Shown here: piece after piece, positions 4,937 through 58,698 of the stretch | Layout: each line of letters starts with the position of its first letter | Position numbering within the stretch: position 1 is the stretch's first letter | NCBI GenBank assembly: GCA_016192145.1 | Contig: JACPUT010000009.1 | Coordinates: 124,001 to 188,000, forward strand | DNA: 64,000 nucleotides | Source: Acidobacteriota bacterium | Lineage (GTDB): Bacteria; Acidobacteriota; Holophagae; Holophagales; Holophagaceae | Reading direction: 5' to 3' | The notes under the pieces: model-generated | Seen by the model: only the letters and a program-made list of their open reading frames with translations | Databases searched by the model: none | Told to the model about the DNA's origin: nothing | Made by a program: the position numbers and the translations under genes

Positions 4937-6013
4937 TCAGGCCCGCCACCCCTCCAGCACCCGGAAGCGCGCGCCCATCTTGCCGGGCAGGGTGAGCTGC
5001 AGCAGGTTCTCCATGCGCTTCATGCGATCCGCCGCGGGCAGGGACATCCACTCCTGCTCCCAGGCCATGAGCGGCGCGTGGGATCGGATCCAGCGGGAGA
5101 GCTCCTGGTGACCCAGCTCGGCGACCCCCGCTTGGGCCAGGAGGTGCTCCAGGCGGGTGAAGTCCACATCGGCCGTGAGGTCCGTGGTGCCGAGGTCCTC
5201 CCACCACTGGCCATCCACGGTGTGGCCCTTGTAGCGGCGAAGGTCGGCCCCTTTGGCCAGGAGGCGGTCGGCGCGCTCGCCGTAGTCGATGGCGAGGAAG
5301 AGGCCGGCCTGAAGGGGGGTGGTGCAGGTGGCCACGAGGGCGGGCAGGCCCTCGGCCCACACGCTGCCGTCGCCGACCTCCGGGCCGTCGCTGTGGCCCT
5401 CGAACCAGGCCGTGGCCTCGCAGGGTTCGGCGGGGTGCCACTCGGGGCCCGTGGCGGTGAGCACCTCCCGCACCCATGCGGAGCCATCCCAGCGCCAGGG
5501 CTGGGCGGGCAGGGCGTCGAAGAGCTCGTTGCTCAGCACGGCGCCGACGAAGGGATCGAGGGTCTCGCCTTCGGCCACGAAGCGGGCGCGGCCGGAGGGG
5601 AGCCAGGGCTCCAGCGCGGCATGGGCGGCGTCCTTGGCGGCGGGGTTGTCGTCGCGGTGGAGGTAACGGAGCGCGGCCGAGAACTCCGGGCTCAGCCCCT
5701 CGGCCGCCCTCAGCACGTCGCGACCCAGCCAACCCCGGCCCGCGCCCGGCTCCAGCACGGTGAAGGTACCCGGCCGCTCCAGCCGCAGCCAGGCCTGCTG
5801 GAAGCGGTGGGCCAGCGCCTCGCCCAGCAGGGGGCCGAGGTCCAGGGCCGTGTAGTAGTCCTTGCCCTCGAAGCCCCAGGGGCCCCCTCCGTCCGGTTTC
5901 GCGCGGCGGTAGTAGCCGAACTCGGGATGGTAGAGGGCGAGGGCCATGACGTCGGCGGCGGGCAGGGGGCCAGCCTGGAGCCGGGACTGGAGCATGTCAG
6001 TCAGGGCATTCAT
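4937..6013 (-). CDS. MidA/NDUFAF7-type SAM-dependent methyltransferase
   Basis: This is a 358-residue class I methyltransferase of the DUF185/MidA family, whose mitochondrial member NDUFAF7 dimethylates an arginine in complex I. Visible marks are YHPEFGYYRR near the N-terminus, DYYTALDLGPLLGEALA, the SAM-binding loop TVLEPGAGRGWLGRDVL, the family motif LSNELFDALPAQPW and LAIDYGERADRLL. The start at 6013 is chosen because it overlaps the preceding TGA (ATGA) and gives the usual N-terminus (MNALTDMLQ). The bacterial substrate is not established. It is coupled to the GxxExxY gene. Confidence 0.9.
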   Translation of the reverse strand: MNALTDMLQSRLQAGPLPAADVMALALYHPEFGYYRRAKPDGGGPWGFEGKDYYTALDLGPLLGEALAHRFQQAWLRLERPGTFTVLEPGAGRGWLGRDVLRAAEGLSPEFSAALRYLHRDDNPAAKDAAHAALEPWLPSGRARFVAEGETLDPFVGAVLSNELFDALPAQPWRWDGSAWVREVLTATGPEWHPAEPCEATAWFEGHSDGPEVGDGSVWAEGLPALVATCTTPLQAGLFLAIDYGERADRLLAKGADLRRYKGHTVDGQWWEDLGTTDLTADVDFTRLEHLLAQAGVAELGHQELSRWIRSHAPLMAWEQEWMSLPAADRMKRMENLLQLTLPGKMGARFRVLEGWRA

Positions 6014-6417
6014 GATCGGGGCTCTCCCAAGATCAACTTGGGCCAGGAGGGGCTCGGCTTGAGGCGTCGGATCTCCAATTTCGGGGAGCCGAAGTTCAGG
6101 AGCAGGCACGTTTCCAGCGCCGTTGCGCGGAGATAATTCAGGCCTTGGGCCAAATGCGAATCCTCCAGAGCTTTGACGGCCTTCAGCTCCACGAGGAGGC
6201 TTCCTTCGACCAGCAGGTCCGCGACGAATTTGCCGATGATGGTGCCTTCGTACCAGACGTCGATGGCCTTCTGCCGCTCGAAGGAGATGCCTGCCCGATC
6301 CAATTCGAGGGCCATCGCGTTCTCGTAAACCTTCTCCAGAAAGCCCGGACCAAGGGTGTTGCTGACCTTGAAGGCGCAGCCTAGGACTTTCTCGGTGAGG
6401 GGATCGTTCTCAAACAC
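6010..6417 (-). CDS. GxxExxY protein (PD-(D/E)XK-like fold)
   Basis: This is a 135-residue protein with the name-giving motif LGPGFLEKVYENAMALEL at residues 23-40. It also has a nuclease-like core: FVADLLVEGSLLVELKAV, i.e. D...ExK, then GLNYLRAT and LLLNFGSPKLEIRR. The family resembles PD-(D/E)XK nucleases, but no function is established. The start is a GTG with GGAAGG upstream; the stop overlaps the methyltransferase ATG. The gene begins 28 nt from the left arm of a long inverted repeat built of GTGATGAACA units. Its base composition looks less GC-rich than its neighbours, which suggests a mobile history. Confidence 0.9.
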   Translation of the reverse strand: MFENDPLTEKVLGCAFKVSNTLGPGFLEKVYENAMALELDRAGISFERQKAIDVWYEGTIIGKFVADLLVEGSLLVELKAVKALEDSHLAQGLNYLRATALETCLLLNFGSPKLEIRRLKPSPSWPKLILGEPRS

Positions 6418-6444
6418 TTAGCCAGCCTTCCAAAAGCAAAAGGA

Positions 6445-6532
6445 AACCGGTGATGAACAGTGATGAAAGCGTGATGAACAGTGATGGGAGCGCCCAGCTT
6501 TTATCACTGTTCATCACTGTTCATCACTGGTT
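6445..6532. repeat. Long inverted repeat with tandem GTGATGAACA units
   Basis: The left arm (about 6445-6484) contains three to four copies of a GTGATGAA(CA) unit. The right arm (6502-6532) is its complement, ATCACTGTTC repeated and ending in ACTGGTT. The arms enclose a short spacer around GGAGCGCCCAGC. The right arm overlaps the last codons and stop (6514) of the MMPL-type transporter, so part of the element has become coding sequence. A flank at 6432-6443 (AAAGCAAAAGGA) is complementary to a flank of the element near 58597. Confidence 0.85.
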
Positions 6533-9081
6533 GGCTTTTTTCTTTCCCCGGCCCTCAACGGCCACCGCTCCAGGATCGCCGGCAGCAGCCACTGCGTCAG
6601 CAGCAAGGCCAGCGCCACCCCCCCCAGGCAGGCGAGGCCGAGGCCCCGGAGACCCCGGTACCCGCTGAACACCAGGCCGCCGAAGCCGGCGAGGGTGGTG
6701 CCCGCGCAGACGGCGTTGACCCGGGCCACCTTGGCGGCGGCGTGGGCTTCGTGGCGGGCGCGGTGGAGCAGGTTGAAGGCGGTGTCCACGCTGACGCCCA
6801 GGGCGATGGGCACGGCCATGAGGCTGAGGAAGGTGAGGGGCTCGCCCGTGGCGCCGAGGATGCCCAGGGCGCCGGCCTGGCTGGCGAGGAGGGGCAGGAG
6901 GGCCAGCAGGGCGAAGCGCAGGGAGCGGCCGAAGAGGGCGACGACGATGAGGATGCCCGCCAGCGTCAGAAGCACCGCCGACTGCACGCTCTGCCAGGCG
7001 ATGGCCTTCACGGCGCGGAAGAGGGGGCGGGTGCCCACGAGGCGGCCCCCGGCCTCCTCCACCTTCGGCCCCACCCGATCCTGCGCCGCCTCGTCCAGGC
7101 GCAGCGGGAGGTTGAGCACGCTGGGCGCGGGGGCGGTGGGCTTGCGGCCGAGGAAGGCGGCCTGGGGGGCCTCGGGCGGGTCCGCCTTGGGCAGGAGGGA
7201 TTGCAGCGCCAGCACGGGTTGGGCGGGATCCGAGGCCGCGAGGCCCAGGGCCTGCAACGGTCGCTCCAACCCCGCGGGATCCAGGCCGGCCTTGGCGGCG
7301 GCCTCCAGCACGGAGCGCCGCCAGGTGTCGCTGGCCAGGGCGAGCCGCAATTCCGCGGAGGGCAGCTGCCAATCGGGGATGGGGAGGCCCTCGGAGCGGA
7401 GCAGCGGGGCGATGCGGTTCCAGCGGGCGGGGAGCTGGTCGGGGTGTTCGAGGGTGAGCTGCAAGGCGAGGGGCTGAAGGCTGGCGCCCAGCACCTTCGC
7501 CAGGCGTTCCTGCAGGGCCAGGGCGGGATTGCCGGAGGCGCGGAAGCGGCGGAGATCCTCCTCCCATCTCACGCGGGGCAGGAGCAGCAGGGCCAGGGCG
7601 AACACGGCCAGGGCCACCTTGGGTTTCCAGGGGGCCTTGCGCACTTTCACGGCCGGTTCCGCCTTGCGGGCGAAGGGGCCCCGCCCCCGGTCCAGCCACA
7701 ACAGGAGGGCCGGCAGGAGCAGGAAGGTCGCCCCGAGGCAGCAGAGCAGGCCCAGCCCCGTGGTGATGCCCAGATCCCGCAGGCCGGGGAAGGGCGTGAA
7801 GGCGAGGGAGGCGAAGGCGGCCACCACCGTGAGCGCGCCAGCCACCACCCCGGGGCCCGTGCCGAGCAGCATGCCCCGCAGGGCCCGCACCTTGGAGGAC
7901 CCCTTGTGCCGCTCCTCCACGTAGCGGCTGAAGAGGAGGATGCCCACGTCATCCCCGACCCCCAGCAGCACGGCCCCAAAGCCCGCCGCCATGAGGTTCA
8001 GGCGGCCCAGGGCCCAGCCCGTGGCGCCCAGGGCCCAGAGCATGCCCACCAGCAGCGGGGCCATCACGAATCCGTAGCCCGCCAGCGTTCGGAAGCCGAT
8101 CCAGTAGACGAGCCCCACGAGGATGAAGCTGAGCCCCAGGGAGAGCAGCACCTCATGGGTGAGGCGCTGGCTTTCGAAGACGGTGATGGCGTGGGCCCCC
8201 GTCACTTGGACGGCGAAGGGCCGATCCGTGCGCCAGGTGAGGGACTGCTCCATCTCCCGGAGGCTGCTGCGCGCGGGCATCACCGGCGGGGCCCCCTCGC
8301 CCAGCCAGCGCAGGGCCCGGAGCGTGCTGAGCGTGTCCGAGGTGGGGAAGGAGGCGACGACGGGCACGAGGACCATGCTCCCGTCCTTGCTTTCCAGGTA
8401 GCCGGTGCGCAGGCGCAGGGTGAAGGCGCGGGCCAGCTCCATGGCCTTCTCCATGCCCTCGCCGCCCTGGGGGGCGAGGCTGCGGAGGCCGAGGGGATCC
8501 AGCCGGGCCAGCGTGGCTTCCACGGGGCTGGGGGAGCCCAGGGCCCGGGCCGTGGCTTCCAGGCGGCGGCGGACTTCCCCGGGATCCCCGAGGGGCGCGA
8601 GGCGATCCCCCAGCCAGGCCGGGGCGAGGGCGTAGAGCGTTTCGGTGGCCGCGCGGCCCACGGCGGGGTCGCCATCCGGCAGGGCCCCCACGGCCAGCAG
8701 GGCGGGCCAGGGGGAGAGGCCCGGCTCGCTGGCCCTGGCCACGGGGCCCGCGAGGCGGCCCTCGGCGGCGAGGCCGTTGAGGGGCATCTGGCTGCGGTCC
8801 AGCAGGCGCTCCACGAGGCCTTCGGCCCAGGCCCGGCGCGCGTCCAGATCCTGCTCCGCGCCCTCCGCCACCAACCAGAGGATCTCCTGCTGGCCGACCC
8901 CCGCCTCGAGGTTGGCGCGCACGGCGGGATGATCCACCGGGAGCACGCTGAGCAGGTCCAACTGCCGCTGCACCTGCCGCACGCCGAGGCCCAGGCCCAC
9001 GGAGAGCAGGGCCACCGCCACCCACAGGCTCAGGGGGCGTCGGAGGTGGAAGCGCAGGAGCGCGCGAAGGAGCTTGTTCAT
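6514..9081 (-). CDS. MMPL/RND-superfamily transporter (HpnN-like)
   Basis: This is an inner-membrane protein of about 855 residues with the RND/MMPL architecture. One N-terminal TM (LSLWVAVALLSVGLGLG) is followed by a large periplasmic domain, a bundle of TMs (VLLSLGLSFILVGLVYWIGF onward) carrying LLGVGDDVGILLFSRYVEE, then a second periplasmic domain and a second TM bundle with VPIALGVSVDTAFNLLHRA. Such proteins export lipids or hopanoids; the cargo here is unknown. ATG 9081 gives a natural N-terminus, and a TTG lies 15 nt upstream. The C-terminal residues (KKPTSDEQ) are encoded inside an inverted-repeat arm. It follows the ATPase gene by 18 nt, so co-transcription is likely. Confidence 0.88.
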   Translation of the reverse strand: MNKLLRALLRFHLRRPLSLWVAVALLSVGLGLGVRQVQRQLDLLSVLPVDHPAVRANLEAGVGQQEILWLVAEGAEQDLDARRAWAEGLVERLLDRSQMPLNGLAAEGRLAGPVARASEPGLSPWPALLAVGALPDGDPAVGRAATETLYALAPAWLGDRLAPLGDPGEVRRRLEATARALGSPSPVEATLARLDPLGLRSLAPQGGEGMEKAMELARAFTLRLRTGYLESKDGSMVLVPVVASFPTSDTLSTLRALRWLGEGAPPVMPARSSLREMEQSLTWRTDRPFAVQVTGAHAITVFESQRLTHEVLLSLGLSFILVGLVYWIGFRTLAGYGFVMAPLLVGMLWALGATGWALGRLNLMAAGFGAVLLGVGDDVGILLFSRYVEERHKGSSKVRALRGMLLGTGPGVVAGALTVVAAFASLAFTPFPGLRDLGITTGLGLLCCLGATFLLLPALLLWLDRGRGPFARKAEPAVKVRKAPWKPKVALAVFALALLLLPRVRWEEDLRRFRASGNPALALQERLAKVLGASLQPLALQLTLEHPDQLPARWNRIAPLLRSEGLPIPDWQLPSAELRLALASDTWRRSVLEAAAKAGLDPAGLERPLQALGLAASDPAQPVLALQSLLPKADPPEAPQAAFLGRKPTAPAPSVLNLPLRLDEAAQDRVGPKVEEAGGRLVGTRPLFRAVKAIAWQSVQSAVLLTLAGILIVVALFGRSLRFALLALLPLLASQAGALGILGATGEPLTFLSLMAVPIALGVSVDTAFNLLHRARHEAHAAAKVARVNAVCAGTTLAGFGGLVFSGYRGLRGLGLACLGGVALALLLTQWLLPAILERWPLRAGERKKPTSDEQ

Positions 9082-10915: not shown

Positions 10916-10955
10916 GGGGTCACCATGGAGGAAGGGTCAGCATAGCAAGGGGAAG

Positions 10956-11047
10956 AGTCCTTGGTCCTTGGTCCTTAGCTGGCGCCGACCCATAGGCTGG
11001 CCTCACAGAGTGGGTCGAGACCAGCCAAGGACTAGGGACTAAGGACT
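10956..11047. repeat. Long inverted repeat with tandem TCCTTRG units and CGACCCA/TGGGTCG core
   Basis: The left arm 10956-10982 is three copies of a TCCTTGG/TCCTTAG unit ending in CTGG. The right arm 11021-11047 pairs with it at about 23 of 27 positions. The interior holds GGCGCCGACCCA and, 18 nt on, TGGGTCG, giving an inner 7-bp stem (10986-10992 with 11011-11017). It lies between hspR and the sigma-factor gene, both leftward. The core motif recurs near 22937, 32269 and 58391. Confidence 0.85.
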
Positions 11048-11058
11048 ATTTCGCCCCA

Positions 11059-12566: not shown

Positions 12567-12636
12567 GAAGCCACGAAGGGACACGAAGGAGCACGAATCA
12601 AAATCTTCGTGCTGATTCGTGTCCCTTCGTGGCTTC
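12567..12636. repeat. Long inverted repeat with CACGAAGG units, between dnaK and dnaJ
   Basis: The left arm 12567-12598 reads GAAGCCACGAAGGGACACGA followed by AGGAGCACGAAT. The right arm 12605-12636 is nearly its complement, ending CCCTTCGTGGCTTC. The loop is only about 6 nt. The arms consist of 9-10-nt CACGAAGGGA-like tandem units. Transcribed, it would form a very stable hairpin just after dnaK and could attenuate read-through into dnaJ. Confidence 0.85.
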
Positions 12637-22900: not shown

Positions 22901-22980
22901 GCTGGAGGCTGGAGTCCGGAGGCTGGCGAAGGGGATCGACCCATCGGATCCGCCCGGTTCGGCGGGGTCGGCGCTGACGC
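22901..22980. repeat. Truncated inverted-repeat element with conserved core
   Basis: This site carries GGCTGGAG-type units (22901-22926) on one side only, followed by ATCGACCCATCGGATCCG ... GGCGGGGTCGGCGCTGAC. Its reverse complement aligns well with the core of the element at 32261-32305: both have GCGCCGACCC, CGGATCCGATGGGTCG and similar spacing. The matching second arm is missing and would fall at the end of the kinase gene ending at 22984. It is a one-armed copy in reverse orientation. Confidence 0.7.
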
Positions 22981-32233: not shown

Positions 32234-32241
32234 TCCCGAGG

Positions 32242-32329
32242 CTGGAGACCGGAGACTGGAGTCGGCGCCGACCCAGCCCCGCCCTACGGATCCGATGGGT
32301 CGTTCTTTCCTCCAGTCTCCGGTCTCCAG
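32242..32329. repeat. Long inverted repeat with GGAGACTGGA units and conserved core, upstream of lon
   Basis: The left arm CTGGAGACCGGAGACTGGAG (32242-32261) is a perfect 20-bp complement of 32310-32329, and further CTCCAGTC units follow to 32338. The core holds GGCGCCGACCCA, the palindrome CGGATCCG and TGGGTCG (inner stem 32269-32275 with 32296-32302). It ends just before a GCTAGACTGG box and the lon start, so it lies in or next to the lon promoter. Confidence 0.9.
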
Positions 32330-32340
32330 TCTCCAGTCCG

Positions 32341-41260: not shown

Positions 41261-41378
41261 GGCTCTGGGCTTTCGGCTCTAGGCTTTTGCCGACTCCGGC
41301 TTCGCCTTGGTCCGTCCAATGGTGAATCGACCGGGATTGCCGCCCCCAGCTAAAGCCTAGAGCCGAAAGCCCAGAGCC
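41261..41378. repeat. Long inverted repeat with perfect 27-bp arms of GGCTCTRGGCTTT units
   Basis: The left arm 41261-41287 (GGCTCTGGGCTTTCGGCTCT plus AGGCTTT) is perfectly complementary to 41352-41378. Each arm is two degenerate copies of GGCTCTrGGCTTT. The 64-nt interior has CCGACTCCGGCTTCG ... GACCGGGATTGCCG. It aligns with the interior of the element at 55791, although the arms differ. It lies between the zinc-ribbon gene and the trans-sulfuration gene, both leftward. Confidence 0.9.
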
Positions 41379-50026: not shown

Positions 50027-52567
<2,541 letters not shown>

Positions 52568-52581
52568 GTGCCTGGCCCGGT

Positions 52582-52597
52582 TGTTCCACGTGGAACG
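52582..52597. other. parS-like site between gyrB and gyrA
   Basis: TGTTCCACGTGGAACG is palindromic except at the outer base pair and matches the ParB consensus core. It lies 15 nt after the gyrB stop. Confidence 0.6.
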
Positions 52598-52638
52598 GCC
52601 GGGTCCTTCCCTGTTCTCGAGCCCGCACCACCCCCCTC

Positions 52639-52654
52639 TGTTCCACGTAGAACA
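52639..52654. other. parS-like site upstream of gyrA
   Basis: TGTTCCACGTAGAACA differs from the consensus TGTTNCACGTGAAACA only in the AG/GA step of its right half. It lies 11 nt before the gyrA ATG, so ParB binding could also affect gyrA expression. Confidence 0.6.
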
Positions 52655-52665
52655 CCGGATACCCC

Positions 52666-55230
52666 ATGAGCCGCATTGAACCGTTGGAAATCGAAAAGGA
52701 GATGCGCAAGTCCTACCTGGACTACGCCATGTCCGTCATCGTGGGCCGCGCCCTCCCGGATGTCCGGGACGGCCTGAAACCCGTGCACCGCCGCGTCCTC
52801 TTCGCCATGAAGGAGTCCGGCAACGAGTGGAATCGGGCCTACAAGAAGTCCGCCCGCACCGTGGGTGACGTGATGGGTAAGTACCATCCCCACGGCGACT
52901 CCGCCATCTACGACACCCTCGTCCGCATGGCCCAGCCCTTCTCCATGCGCCACGTGCTGGTGGATGGCCAGGGCAACTTCGGCTCCATCGATGGCGACAG
53001 CCCGGCGGCCATGCGCTACACCGAGGCCCGCCTCTCCCGCCTCTCCAACGAGCTGATGTCCGACATCGACCAGGAGACGGTGGATTTCGGGCCCAACTAC
53101 GACGGCAGCATGGAGGAGCCCCTCGTCCTCCCCGCCCGCTTCCCCAACCTCCTCGTGAACGGCTCCCAGGGCATCGCCGTGGGCATGGCCACCAGCATCC
53201 CCCCGCACAACCTGCGGGAGTGCTGCGCGGCCCTCGTGGGCCTCATCGACGATCCCGAGATGTCCTTCAGCCAGCTCGTCACCCACGTGCAGGGCCCCGA
53301 CTTCCCCGGGGGCGGCACCATGCTCGGCACGGAAGGCGTCATGGAGGCCTACCGCACGGGCCGGGGCCGCTGCATCGTCCGCGCGAAGTCCCACACGGAG
53401 ACCACGCGCATCAAGAACAAGGGGGAGGTGGAGCAGATCGTCTTCACCGAGCTGCCCTATCAGGTGAACAAGGCCAACACGATCGAGAAGATCGCCGAGC
53501 TCGTGCGCGAGAAGAAGATCGACGGCATCTCCGACGTCCGCGATGAGAGCGACCGCGAGGGCATCCGCCTCGTCATCGACCTCAAGAAGGGCGAGGCCTC
53601 CGAGATCGTCCTCAACCAGCTCTACCAGCAGACCCAGCTCCAGAACTCCTTCCCCATCACCATGCTCTGCATCGTGAACGGGCAGCCCCGGGTCTGCACC
53701 CTGAAGGAGATCCTCCAGGAGTTCATCGGGTTCCGCCGCGAGGTGGTGACCCGCCGCACCATGTTCCAGCTGCGGAAGGCCGAGGAGCGCCACCACATCC
53801 TCATGGGCCTCAAGATCGCCCTGGACAACCTGGACGCCGTCATCAAGCTAATCCGGGCCAGCAAGAATCCCGAGGAGGCCAAGTCGGGCCTCATGGCCAA
53901 GTTCGGCCTGAGCGACAAGCAGGCCCAGGCCATCCTCGACATGCGCCTCCAGCGCCTCACGGGCCTGGAACGCGACAAGATCATGGACGAGCTGGCCGAG
54001 GTGGAGGCCACCATCAAGCGCCTGAAGGCCATCCTCGCCGACGTGAAGCTCCTGCTGAACGTCATCAAGGACGAGCTAAAGGCCGTGGCCGAGCAGTTCG
54101 GCAACCCCCGCCGCACGGAGATCACCGGGTATTCCGGTGACATCCGCATGGAGGACGTGGTGCCCGACGAGCCCATGGTCGTCACCCTCTCCAAGACCGG
54201 CTACATCAAGCGCACCGAGCTCATGGCCTACCGCAAGCAGCGCCGCGGCGGGAAGGGCAAGGTGGGCATGAAGACGAAGGATGAGGATTTCGTCGAGCAG
54301 CTCTTCCTCACCAAGGCCCACGACACCCTGCTGATCTTCACGGATCACGGCTACGTCTACGCCATCAAGGTCTACGACATCCCCGAGTCCGGCGCCGCCA
54401 ACCGCGGCAAGCACATCAAGAACCTCATCAGCCTGAAGGACGGCGAGAACCCCGTCACCTTCATGGCCCTCCGGGACTTCCCCGAGGGTGAGTTCCTCGT
54501 GTTCGCCACCTCCGACGGCACCATCAAGAAGACGAGCCTGGCCGCCTACGCGAACATCCGCAGCAACGGCCTCATCGCCCTCAACATCGAAGACGGCAAC
54601 CGGCTCGTGGCCGTGCGCCGCTCCACGGGCAGCCAGCATGTGCTCCTGGCCAGCGCCCTGGGCAAGGCCATCCGCTTCCCCGAGGAGGAGGTCCGCGCCA
54701 CGGGCCGCGCCACCACGGGCGTCCGGGGCATGAAGCTGGCCGACAAGGATCACATCGTCGATATGGAGCTGGCCGATGCCCTCCCGGATCTGCCGGAAGG
54801 CGTGGAGGCCGACGAGAGCACCGCCGCCTACGGCATGCTCCTCACGGTCACCGAGAAGGGTTTCGGCAAGCGCAGCCTCGTGCAGGATTACCGCCTACAG
54901 GGTCGCGGCGGCCAGGGCGTGATCAACATCCGCGCCGGGGTCCGCAACGGCCACGTGGTGGGCTTCAAGATCATCCGCCCCGACGAGGGCTGCCTCCTCA
55001 TCACCTCCGAGGGCATGACCATCCGCTTCGATGGCGATAGCGTCCGCAAGACGGGCCGCGCCGCCATGGGGGTCAGCCTCATGAAGACCGCCTCCGCCGA
55101 GGACAAGGTGGTCGGCATCGCCAAGATCGACGCCGCCGCCCACGCCTTGGATGAGGAGGATGACGACCTCGAAGGCGCCGTTCCCGGCCCCGATGAGTCC
55201 GGCCAGCAGGGCAAGCTCACCCTCGAGTAG
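52666..55230 (+). CDS. gyrA: DNA gyrase subunit A
   Basis: This is an 854-residue gyrase breakage-reunion subunit: [41 protein letters not shown] and the catalytic Tyr in [13 protein letters not shown]. The quinolone-resistance region has HGDSAIYDT, i.e. Ser then Tyr-Asp at the positions equal to E. coli 83 and 86-87. The C-terminal pinwheel has the GyrA box [12 protein letters not shown]. The tail is acidic. A terminator-like hairpin follows. Confidence 0.98.
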
Positions 55231-55790: not shown

Positions 55791-55907
55791 GGCTCTCGGC
55801 TTTTGGCTCTGGGCTATGGCTGATTCCGGTCTTCCATCGGCCCGTTCCCGATCGAGCTGACCGGATTACCGTTCCAAGCAAGAGCCCATAGCCAAGAGCC
55901 CAGGGCC
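55791..55907. repeat. Long inverted repeat with GGCTCTGGGCT units
   Basis: The left arm 55791-55821 and the right arm 55877-55907 are imperfectly complementary (about 24 of 31). They are built from GGCTCTcGGCTTTTG-like units, as at 41261 but diverged. The interior CTGATTCCGGTCTTCC ... GCTGACCGGATTACCG aligns with the interior at 41289-41345. It lies between convergent genes. Confidence 0.8.
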
Positions 55908-58333: not shown

Positions 58334-58356
58334 GGACGGGGACAGAGAAAAAAGGG

Positions 58357-58593
58357 TTAACAGGGATGAAGGGGATAATGGGGATGGGCCGCCGACCCAT
58401 GGGCGGTCATCCCCCTGCGGGGCGGCGCCGGGCGGACCTTCGGGGGCCTTCCCGGCGCCGCCCCGCAGGGCTGGTTCAGCAAGCTGAACCAGGGGCCGAA
58501 GGCCCGGATGACCTTGTCGGGAGGAGGTGGTCCTATGGAAATTCGAGAAGGCCAGAGATCGAGCATCCCCTTCATCCCCTTCATCCCTGTTAA
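58357..58593. repeat. Large inverted-repeat element with an internal four-helix junction
   Basis: The outer arms are 58357-58386 (TTAACAGGGATGAAGGGGAT...) and 58564-58593, matching 28 of 30 and made of GATGAAGGG units. Inside, GGTCATCC (58405-58412) pairs with GGATGACC (58506-58513). This stem encloses hairpin A (18 perfect bp, 58415-58432 with 58451-58468), hairpin B (CTGGTTCAG/CTGAACCAG, 58471-58492) and hairpin C (GGGCC-GAA-GGCCC, 58493-58505), separated by 0-2 nt. GCCGACCCA at 58391 matches the core of other elements. The 365-nt gap 58334-58698 holds no gene. Confidence 0.85.
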
Positions 58594-58698
58594 ATCGCTT
58601 TTGCTTTTCAAGGCAGCCCAAACCTCGAATCTTGGTGATCTTAGCCCTATCCATGTCAGGCCCCCGTAGGGTTCAATGGTCCCAACCCCTGGAGCGAC

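Follow-up and report, generated by a model that had tools for sequence, protein, structure and literature searches.

The intergenic inverted repeats described here probably belong, as members without a gene, to a class of very small mobile elements related to the intervening sequences of 23S rRNA. This class spans several phyla, with full versions that carry the gene of a GxxExxY nuclease or of a four-helix-bundle protein between tandem-repeat arms. A full unit of ~450-600 bp has one small gene between an outer arm, made of 2-6 short tandem units, and an inverted copy of that arm. The gene slot is occupied by either of two unrelated genes, GxxExxY or PF05635. This reading is carried by the association of the genes with the arms, by a unit period that is tied to the gene, by the occurrence of the same arms with and without a gene, by the presence and absence of elements at orthologous sites and by one in-place internal deletion. 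Mechanistically, the encoded protein would act on the arms through the spacing of their units, not through their exact sequence, and gene-less copies would be moved in trans.

Tandem-arm inverted repeats in the window and across the genome

The window, that is, the whole stretch of 64,000 nucleotides (contig C4:124001-188000 of a 3.80 Mb assembly that is 98% complete), holds all eight sites of the original prediction. They share one architecture, as proposed, with the copy at 22901 being one-armed; a second arm was sought there and not found. Gene calls are our own.

32238..32261, + strand: focal element, left arm (heptamer family A, GGAGRCY)
32262..32309, + strand: focal element, core containing the inner inverted motif CGACCCA..TGGGTCG
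32310..32333, + strand: focal element, right arm (family A), complementary to the left arm
10953..11050, + strand: gene-less element, heptamer family C (CCTTRGT), arms 10953-10992/11011-11050, core GGCGCCGACCCA
22901..22980, + strand: one-armed family A copy, arm followed by core GATCGACCCATCGGATCCG..GGGTCGGCGC
41261..41378, + strand: gene-less element, family B (GGCTYTG), long subtype, arms 41261-41290/41349-41378, conserved flanks GCATGGAGTG..AATCGCACGATC
55791..55907, + strand: gene-less element, heptamer family B, imperfect arms 55791-55821/55877-55907
6438..6539, + strand: gene-less element, family I (GTGATGAACA, 10-nt units), arms 6438-6467/6510-6539
6010..6417, - strand: GxxExxY protein gene (TIGR04256 / PF13366 PD-(D/E)XK nuclease), D67, E77 and K79 intact
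12567..12636, + strand: gene-less element, family G (CACGAAGG, 10-nt units), arms 12567-12597/12606-12636
58348..58602, + strand: gene-less element with a long interior, family J (GATGAAGGG, 9-nt units), arms 58348-58386/58564-58602

The heptamer sites (10953, 22901, 32238, 41261 and 55791) belong to the PF05635 type, and those at 6438, 12567 and 58348 belong to the GxxExxY type by their unit length of 8-10 nt.

At a score of at least 17 the window contains five such repeats, versus none in five dinucleotide shuffles. Counting over 855 kb of the same Holophagaceae genome, taken in stretches that make up 22% of it, gave 77 tandem-arm inverted repeats with assignable arms, which extrapolates to ~340 genome-wide; they abound in the first 400 kb of contig C7, and the shuffled version has none. 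The excess, already judged too large for chance from the window, is therefore genome-wide. As also foreseen, almost all repeats are intergenic (76/77, versus 10.8% of the sequence being intergenic DNA; binomial p ~1e-72), and no named element fits them fully; an Rfam search of the window returned no matches.

Arm sequences had been taken as unrelated between most sites, which does not hold. The arms of the 77 repeats sort into 12 recurring families, and the eight window sites represent six of these, each recurring across the genome; differences between sites are mostly those between different inserted element families. Three families are built of heptamers (A, B and C), and the other nine of 8-10-nt units, for example GCGAATGAC, CACAGAGG, CACGAAGG, GTGATGAACA, GATGAAGGG, ACAGGATG and ACACCAAG.

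Many heptamer elements have a common core, GGCGCCGACCCAT / ATGGGTCGGCGCC, so that the interiors are not all unrelated, and the inner motif CGACCCA..TGGGTCG is frequent among them. In the gene-bearing family C unit, GGCGCCGACCCAT is the leader directly ahead of the start codon of PF05635. Short heptamer elements frequently have this gene leader inverted on both sides, an arrangement that simple internal deletion does not explain. Nucleotides 51-96 of the focal element (the end of the core and the right arm) align at 83% to the end of a PF05635 element at C1:468.7-469.1 kb, and the element at 10953 has its gene-bearing counterpart at C7:65781-66231. The long family B subtype occurs at 41261-41378 of the window, at C7:128243, 135238 and 465327 and at C4:95713; since the sequence outside its arms is conserved (TTTGCATGGAGTG..AATCGCACGATC), the true ends of the element may lie beyond the arms. 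The interior of the element at 58348 includes a nested perfect hairpin (58413-58470). A search for gene remnants in the 77 short elements of the genome gave none that was convincing.

Gene-bearing versions and the period of the arm units

The lead to the genes came from one unpaired D arm (AACCGCGAATGACGCGAATG) running directly into a GxxExxY gene, and PF05635, whose four-helix-bundle protein belongs to the 23S intervening-sequence family, was first met inside a long-spaced family C arm pair. Inverted tandem arms enclose four of the five PF13366 copies in the genome; there are exactly two copies of PF05635, both within heptamer arms, one of family A and one of family C.

The association extends well beyond this genome. 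Among the best-scoring GxxExxY and PF05635 loci with full flanks, 85 of 98 have the gene between inverted arms, compared with 2 of 209 similarly sized control genes (Fisher p ~1e-58). For GxxExxY these are 27/31 loci in Acidobacteriota and 15/19 in other phyla, the latter from 13 non-acidobacterial genomes chosen for the D-arm 20-mer and hence biased to GxxExxY units with D arms. The same choice introduces no bias to PF05635 or to period-7 arms, and PF05635 gave 26/29 and 17/19. GxxExxY reading frames again lie between D-type arms in the cross-phylum loci, a planctomycete included. In further Holophagaceae genomes 15 of 16 GxxExxY loci have tandem arms (two of these loci were already in the first set), and the sixteenth has a GC-rich non-tandem pair; the gene is found there within arms of families L, K, G and F, and likewise H (L329). 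As a separate observation, one genome of the same family (G093) has 28 PF13366 matches, several of them partial, which suggests a burst and decay of gene-bearing units.

The length of the arm unit follows the gene. Where a period could be called, it is 7 in 35 of 41 PF05635 arm pairs (8 or 9 in the rest) and in none of 24 GxxExxY pairs, all of which have periods of 8-11 (Fisher p ~1e-12). PF05635 arm sequences vary by genome (AGGGATC, GGACCTG, AGTGGTC, TAGGGGA, GGTAGTC and more) and the period stays. Exact arm words are likewise confined to one class: families A and C have words of 21-22 nt in common with PF05635 arms only, and families D, E, F, H, K and L have words of 18-30 nt in common with GxxExxY arms only, against a shuffle baseline of 9-14 nt. 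For the family G element at 12567 the closest gene-bearing arms (L492) match over 13 nt. Arms of families B, I and J matched no gene-bearing unit in this comparison; family B and unit L423 have the 15-nt leader GCTGGCGCCGACCCA in common.

The genes might instead be passengers, frequent cargo that benefits the elements, with movement due to an unrelated transposase or to host recombination. This would accommodate the use of one architecture by two unrelated proteins, as well as the Holophagaceae genome (G052) that keeps a short element and has no PF05635 or GxxExxY match. It would also suit PF05635, for which we know of no catalytic site or function and which thus cannot alone explain movement. 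However, a mover independent of the genes would not predict a unit period that tracks gene class across phyla, or arm words that never cross between the classes, and we consider this explanation rather unlikely.

Presence, absence and different families at orthologous sites

The focal element lies at the nrdR-lon site, which contains no element in the one other genome of the genus. Of 29 comparable Holophagaceae, nearly all have this site empty, and a few have unrelated larger inserts. Because the outgroups are empty, the focal element is a derived gain. A richer picture emerges from the purH-alaS intergenic region, compared across ~50 Holophagaceae genomes. Several genomes of one genus have the empty state, with only 13-16 nt; five (G000, G180, G151, G040 and G163) have arm-GxxExxY-arm units; seven have a short element of the unrelated L family; and G064 and G184 have another arm type. 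In G156 both D arms remain, the gene ends are fused and most of the gene is deleted (165 nt; HMM remnant E=1.5e-5). The region thus shows different families inserted at one site and one in-place, gene-poor derivative. Inspection by eye showed no target-site duplication at either the focal or the purH-alaS site, where relatives are too diverged for a clean reading. Many genomes of the same family (G183, G181, G119, G135, G192 and others; L344, L349, L352, L342, L343) also have a GC-rich hairpin element, GCGCGGAACGGGCTTTGCCCGTGCCGCGC..GGGGGCTCCGGGGG, in the purH-alaS region.

These comparisons bear on whether the repeats are bidirectional intrinsic terminators, or stabilisers of mRNA 3' ends, kept by selection, with arms that differ since only pairing matters. 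Their position fits: the repeats lie close downstream of stop codons (median distance ~16 nt) and avoid divergent intergenic regions (2 of 76 versus 100 of 415, p=2e-6). The predicted hairpins are also very stable (-46 to -80 kcal/mol for the smaller ones), and in some families A/T tracts lie outside the arms (mean 0.51 for family I). However, the heptamer families A-C are without T tracts (0.17-0.22), interiors reach 280 nt, and identical arms enclose genes and recur in distant phyla. Ordinary terminators conserved at orthologous positions, the outcome that would have undone the original prediction, are not what we find, given the empty focal site in relatives and the different families in different genomes at purH-alaS. 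An ordinary intrinsic terminator was accordingly rejected, and the broader explanation by selected terminators or stabilisers is quite improbable; terminator function may be a secondary use.

How the arms vary and spread

The arms had also been proposed to expand and change site by site through slippage, with complementarity kept by a templated process. Gain and loss of units does occur, as heptamer number differs between the orthologous PF05635 elements L484 and L485. Complementarity, on the other hand, is lost in the orthologous copy L484, and arms are hardly more alike within elements than across them: 0.906 versus 0.896 in family A (p=0.16), no difference in family C, and a slight excess in family B (0.892 versus 0.862, p=0.0004). 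Templated maintenance is not needed and has hardly any support. The explanation that arms arise and stay palindromic in place, by slippage and quasipalindrome correction and with no mobile element, can draw on the unit changes and on family B, but it is already largely refuted and very improbable, given the barely raised similarity in families A and C, the identical arm words in many genomes and phyla, the clean empty sites, the gene association and the constant polarity of the arms (a given unit strand lies outside-left in 77 repeats and the reverse in 0).

The spread of arm words is well illustrated by the D-arm 20-mer AACCGCGAATGACGCGAATG, which occurs exactly in 93 stretches where a simple base-count estimate gives ~0.5. 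Its hosts include Holophagaceae, Desulfobacterales, Planctomycetota, Verrucomicrobia, Armatimonadetes, Bacteroidales, Clostridiales, Calditrichota and Nitrospirae, and an inverted partner arm lies at most 280 nt away in 66 of 98 occurrences. Separately, at least 120 stretches of viral contigs (L178-L297) contain the E-family arm word ACCACAGAGGNCACAGAGG, which suggests carriage on phages or proviruses; searching viral contigs with back-translated patterns confirmed no GxxExxY relatives.

The two proteins and a possible route of movement

The GxxExxY protein keeps D67, E77 and K79 in 7/7 aligned sequences. Its predicted structure (mean pLDDT 83.9) retrieved PD-(D/E)XK exonucleases (lambda exonuclease, LHK-Exo), Cas4 and, weakly, a Holliday-junction resolvase in a fold search, and it has no sequence relatives in the PDB. 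The open-licence literature that we searched holds no description of its function or of its membership in elements, nor of the elements themselves. The PF05635 protein resembles 2gsc, a homopentameric ring (PMC4990558), and is a homologue of Avd, the accessory protein found in diversity-generating retroelements (PMC10053308). A reverse-transcriptase route of this retroelement kind was rejected, as no PF00078 match was found in the 98%-complete genome.

With the repeats taken as members of a mobile class, we tentatively favour a hairpin and replication route as the most likely way of movement, ahead of break and repair or another route, somewhat doubtful as it is. In this route, the least certain part of the explanation, the arms would fold into hairpins or cruciforms when single-stranded, during replication or repair. 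The protein would then bind or cut at the folded arms, and by copying or joining the element would enter intergenic DNA directly downstream of stop codons, at places where hairpins might be least harmful or even useful as terminators. Afterwards, the arms would drift through gain and loss of units. The repeats may represent a categorically new class of mobile DNA that spans many phyla. Its small protein, a PD-(D/E)XK nuclease or a four-helix-bundle ring, would read the spacing of tandem units in hairpin-forming arms and not a fixed end sequence, leaving the ends free to vary in sequence at a fixed period, a proposal that we place slightly short of even. Counting against the preferred explanation, transposition was not observed and target-site duplications are not evident, the GxxExxY gene of the window adjoins the element at 6438 with no enclosing arm pair, and the arms of families B, I and J are without a gene-bearing match.

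The mobile-class reading would give a likely identity to degenerate intergenic tandem repeats of several phyla and would place in a biological context two widespread protein families without an assigned function (GxxExxY/TIGR04256 and the four-helix-bundle protein of 23S intervening sequences). It bears on a question raised since the early 1990s, namely whether 23S intervening sequences are mobile elements whose reading frame aids movement. The rule that gene class sets unit period is directly testable.

Relation to known systems

The closest known kind to the PF05635-type elements is the 23S rRNA intervening sequence with its S23/IVP reading frame, given the PF05635 protein family and the terminal inverted repeats in both. 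The gene-bearing heptamer-arm units contain the PF05635 gene (2/2 in this genome) and the short elements are without it; a long stem formed by terminal inverted repeats is present at 26/29 and 17/19 PF05635 loci. In Coxiella burnetii, the ~430-nt intervening sequence has a sporadic distribution from which horizontal transfer was inferred, and its PF05635 reading frame is preceded by tandem heptamers (GACAGAT) in strain-variable number (PMC4990558). In contrast to intervening sequences, which sit in helix 9, 25 or 45 of the 23S rRNA gene, the elements here are intergenic and scattered (76/77 between protein genes), with hundreds of gene-less copies per genome and many arm families, and only here is there a parallel type that uses GxxExxY. 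They are possibly a new class altogether.

Degenerate intergenic arrays with a patchy cross-phylum distribution, like the arms here, are also formed by the cyanobacterial STRR heptamers. The TAACTGA repeats of Beggiatoaceae are similar in these respects; as far as the sections describing them go, however, they are direct, with hardly any inverted pairing and no enclosed gene (PMC4679880). Compared by description, the multicopy 'predicted global regulator binding sites' of Geobacter metallireducens (classes 1-3, with 7-mers such as MTYCTGA and 8-mers such as GTTGCTYN) have paired tandem units of 7-9 nt in opposite orientation with variable spacing, but the part of that report dealing with them presents them as protein-binding sites and mentions no gene-bearing version, mobility or wider family (PMC2700814).

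Like MITEs and REPINs/RAYT, the elements are short, gene-less, intergenic inverted repeats of high copy number with rare gene-bearing partners (PMC3116915). Partners with the same ends, by words of at least 18 nt, exist for families A and C and for D, E, F, H, K and L, and more weakly (13 nt) for G; presence and absence is seen at the focal and purH-alaS sites, and derivation by internal deletion in one case, G156 at purH-alaS. Unlike MITEs and REPINs/RAYT, the arms here are made of tandem units of free sequence and class-specific period, and the partner genes belong neither to a known transposase family nor to the REP tyrosine transposases. The Foldback/Galileo transposons of Drosophila also have internally repetitive terminal inverted repeats, but they are eukaryotic, much larger and use a P-element-type transposase, which leaves an analogy only (PMC3573991).

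Other repeats in the sampled sequence

Between gyrB (50057-52567) and gyrA (52666-55230), the window contains at 52582-52654 the palindrome TGTTCCACGTGGAAC with an imperfect inverted copy; it resembles a ParB parS site and is absent from the other 791 kb scanned. A second repeated hairpin family without tandem units, starting with AGGAGCGTGTCCAAG, lies at C7:4977, 383872, 479859 and 619118 (L006, L025, L029, L036), with 2-7-nt loops at three of the four places. Finally, long non-tandem inverted repeats of ~31 nt, whose interior is constant at 206-209 nt, occur at C7:288640, 386971, 535938 and 682234, and these look like a separate element family.
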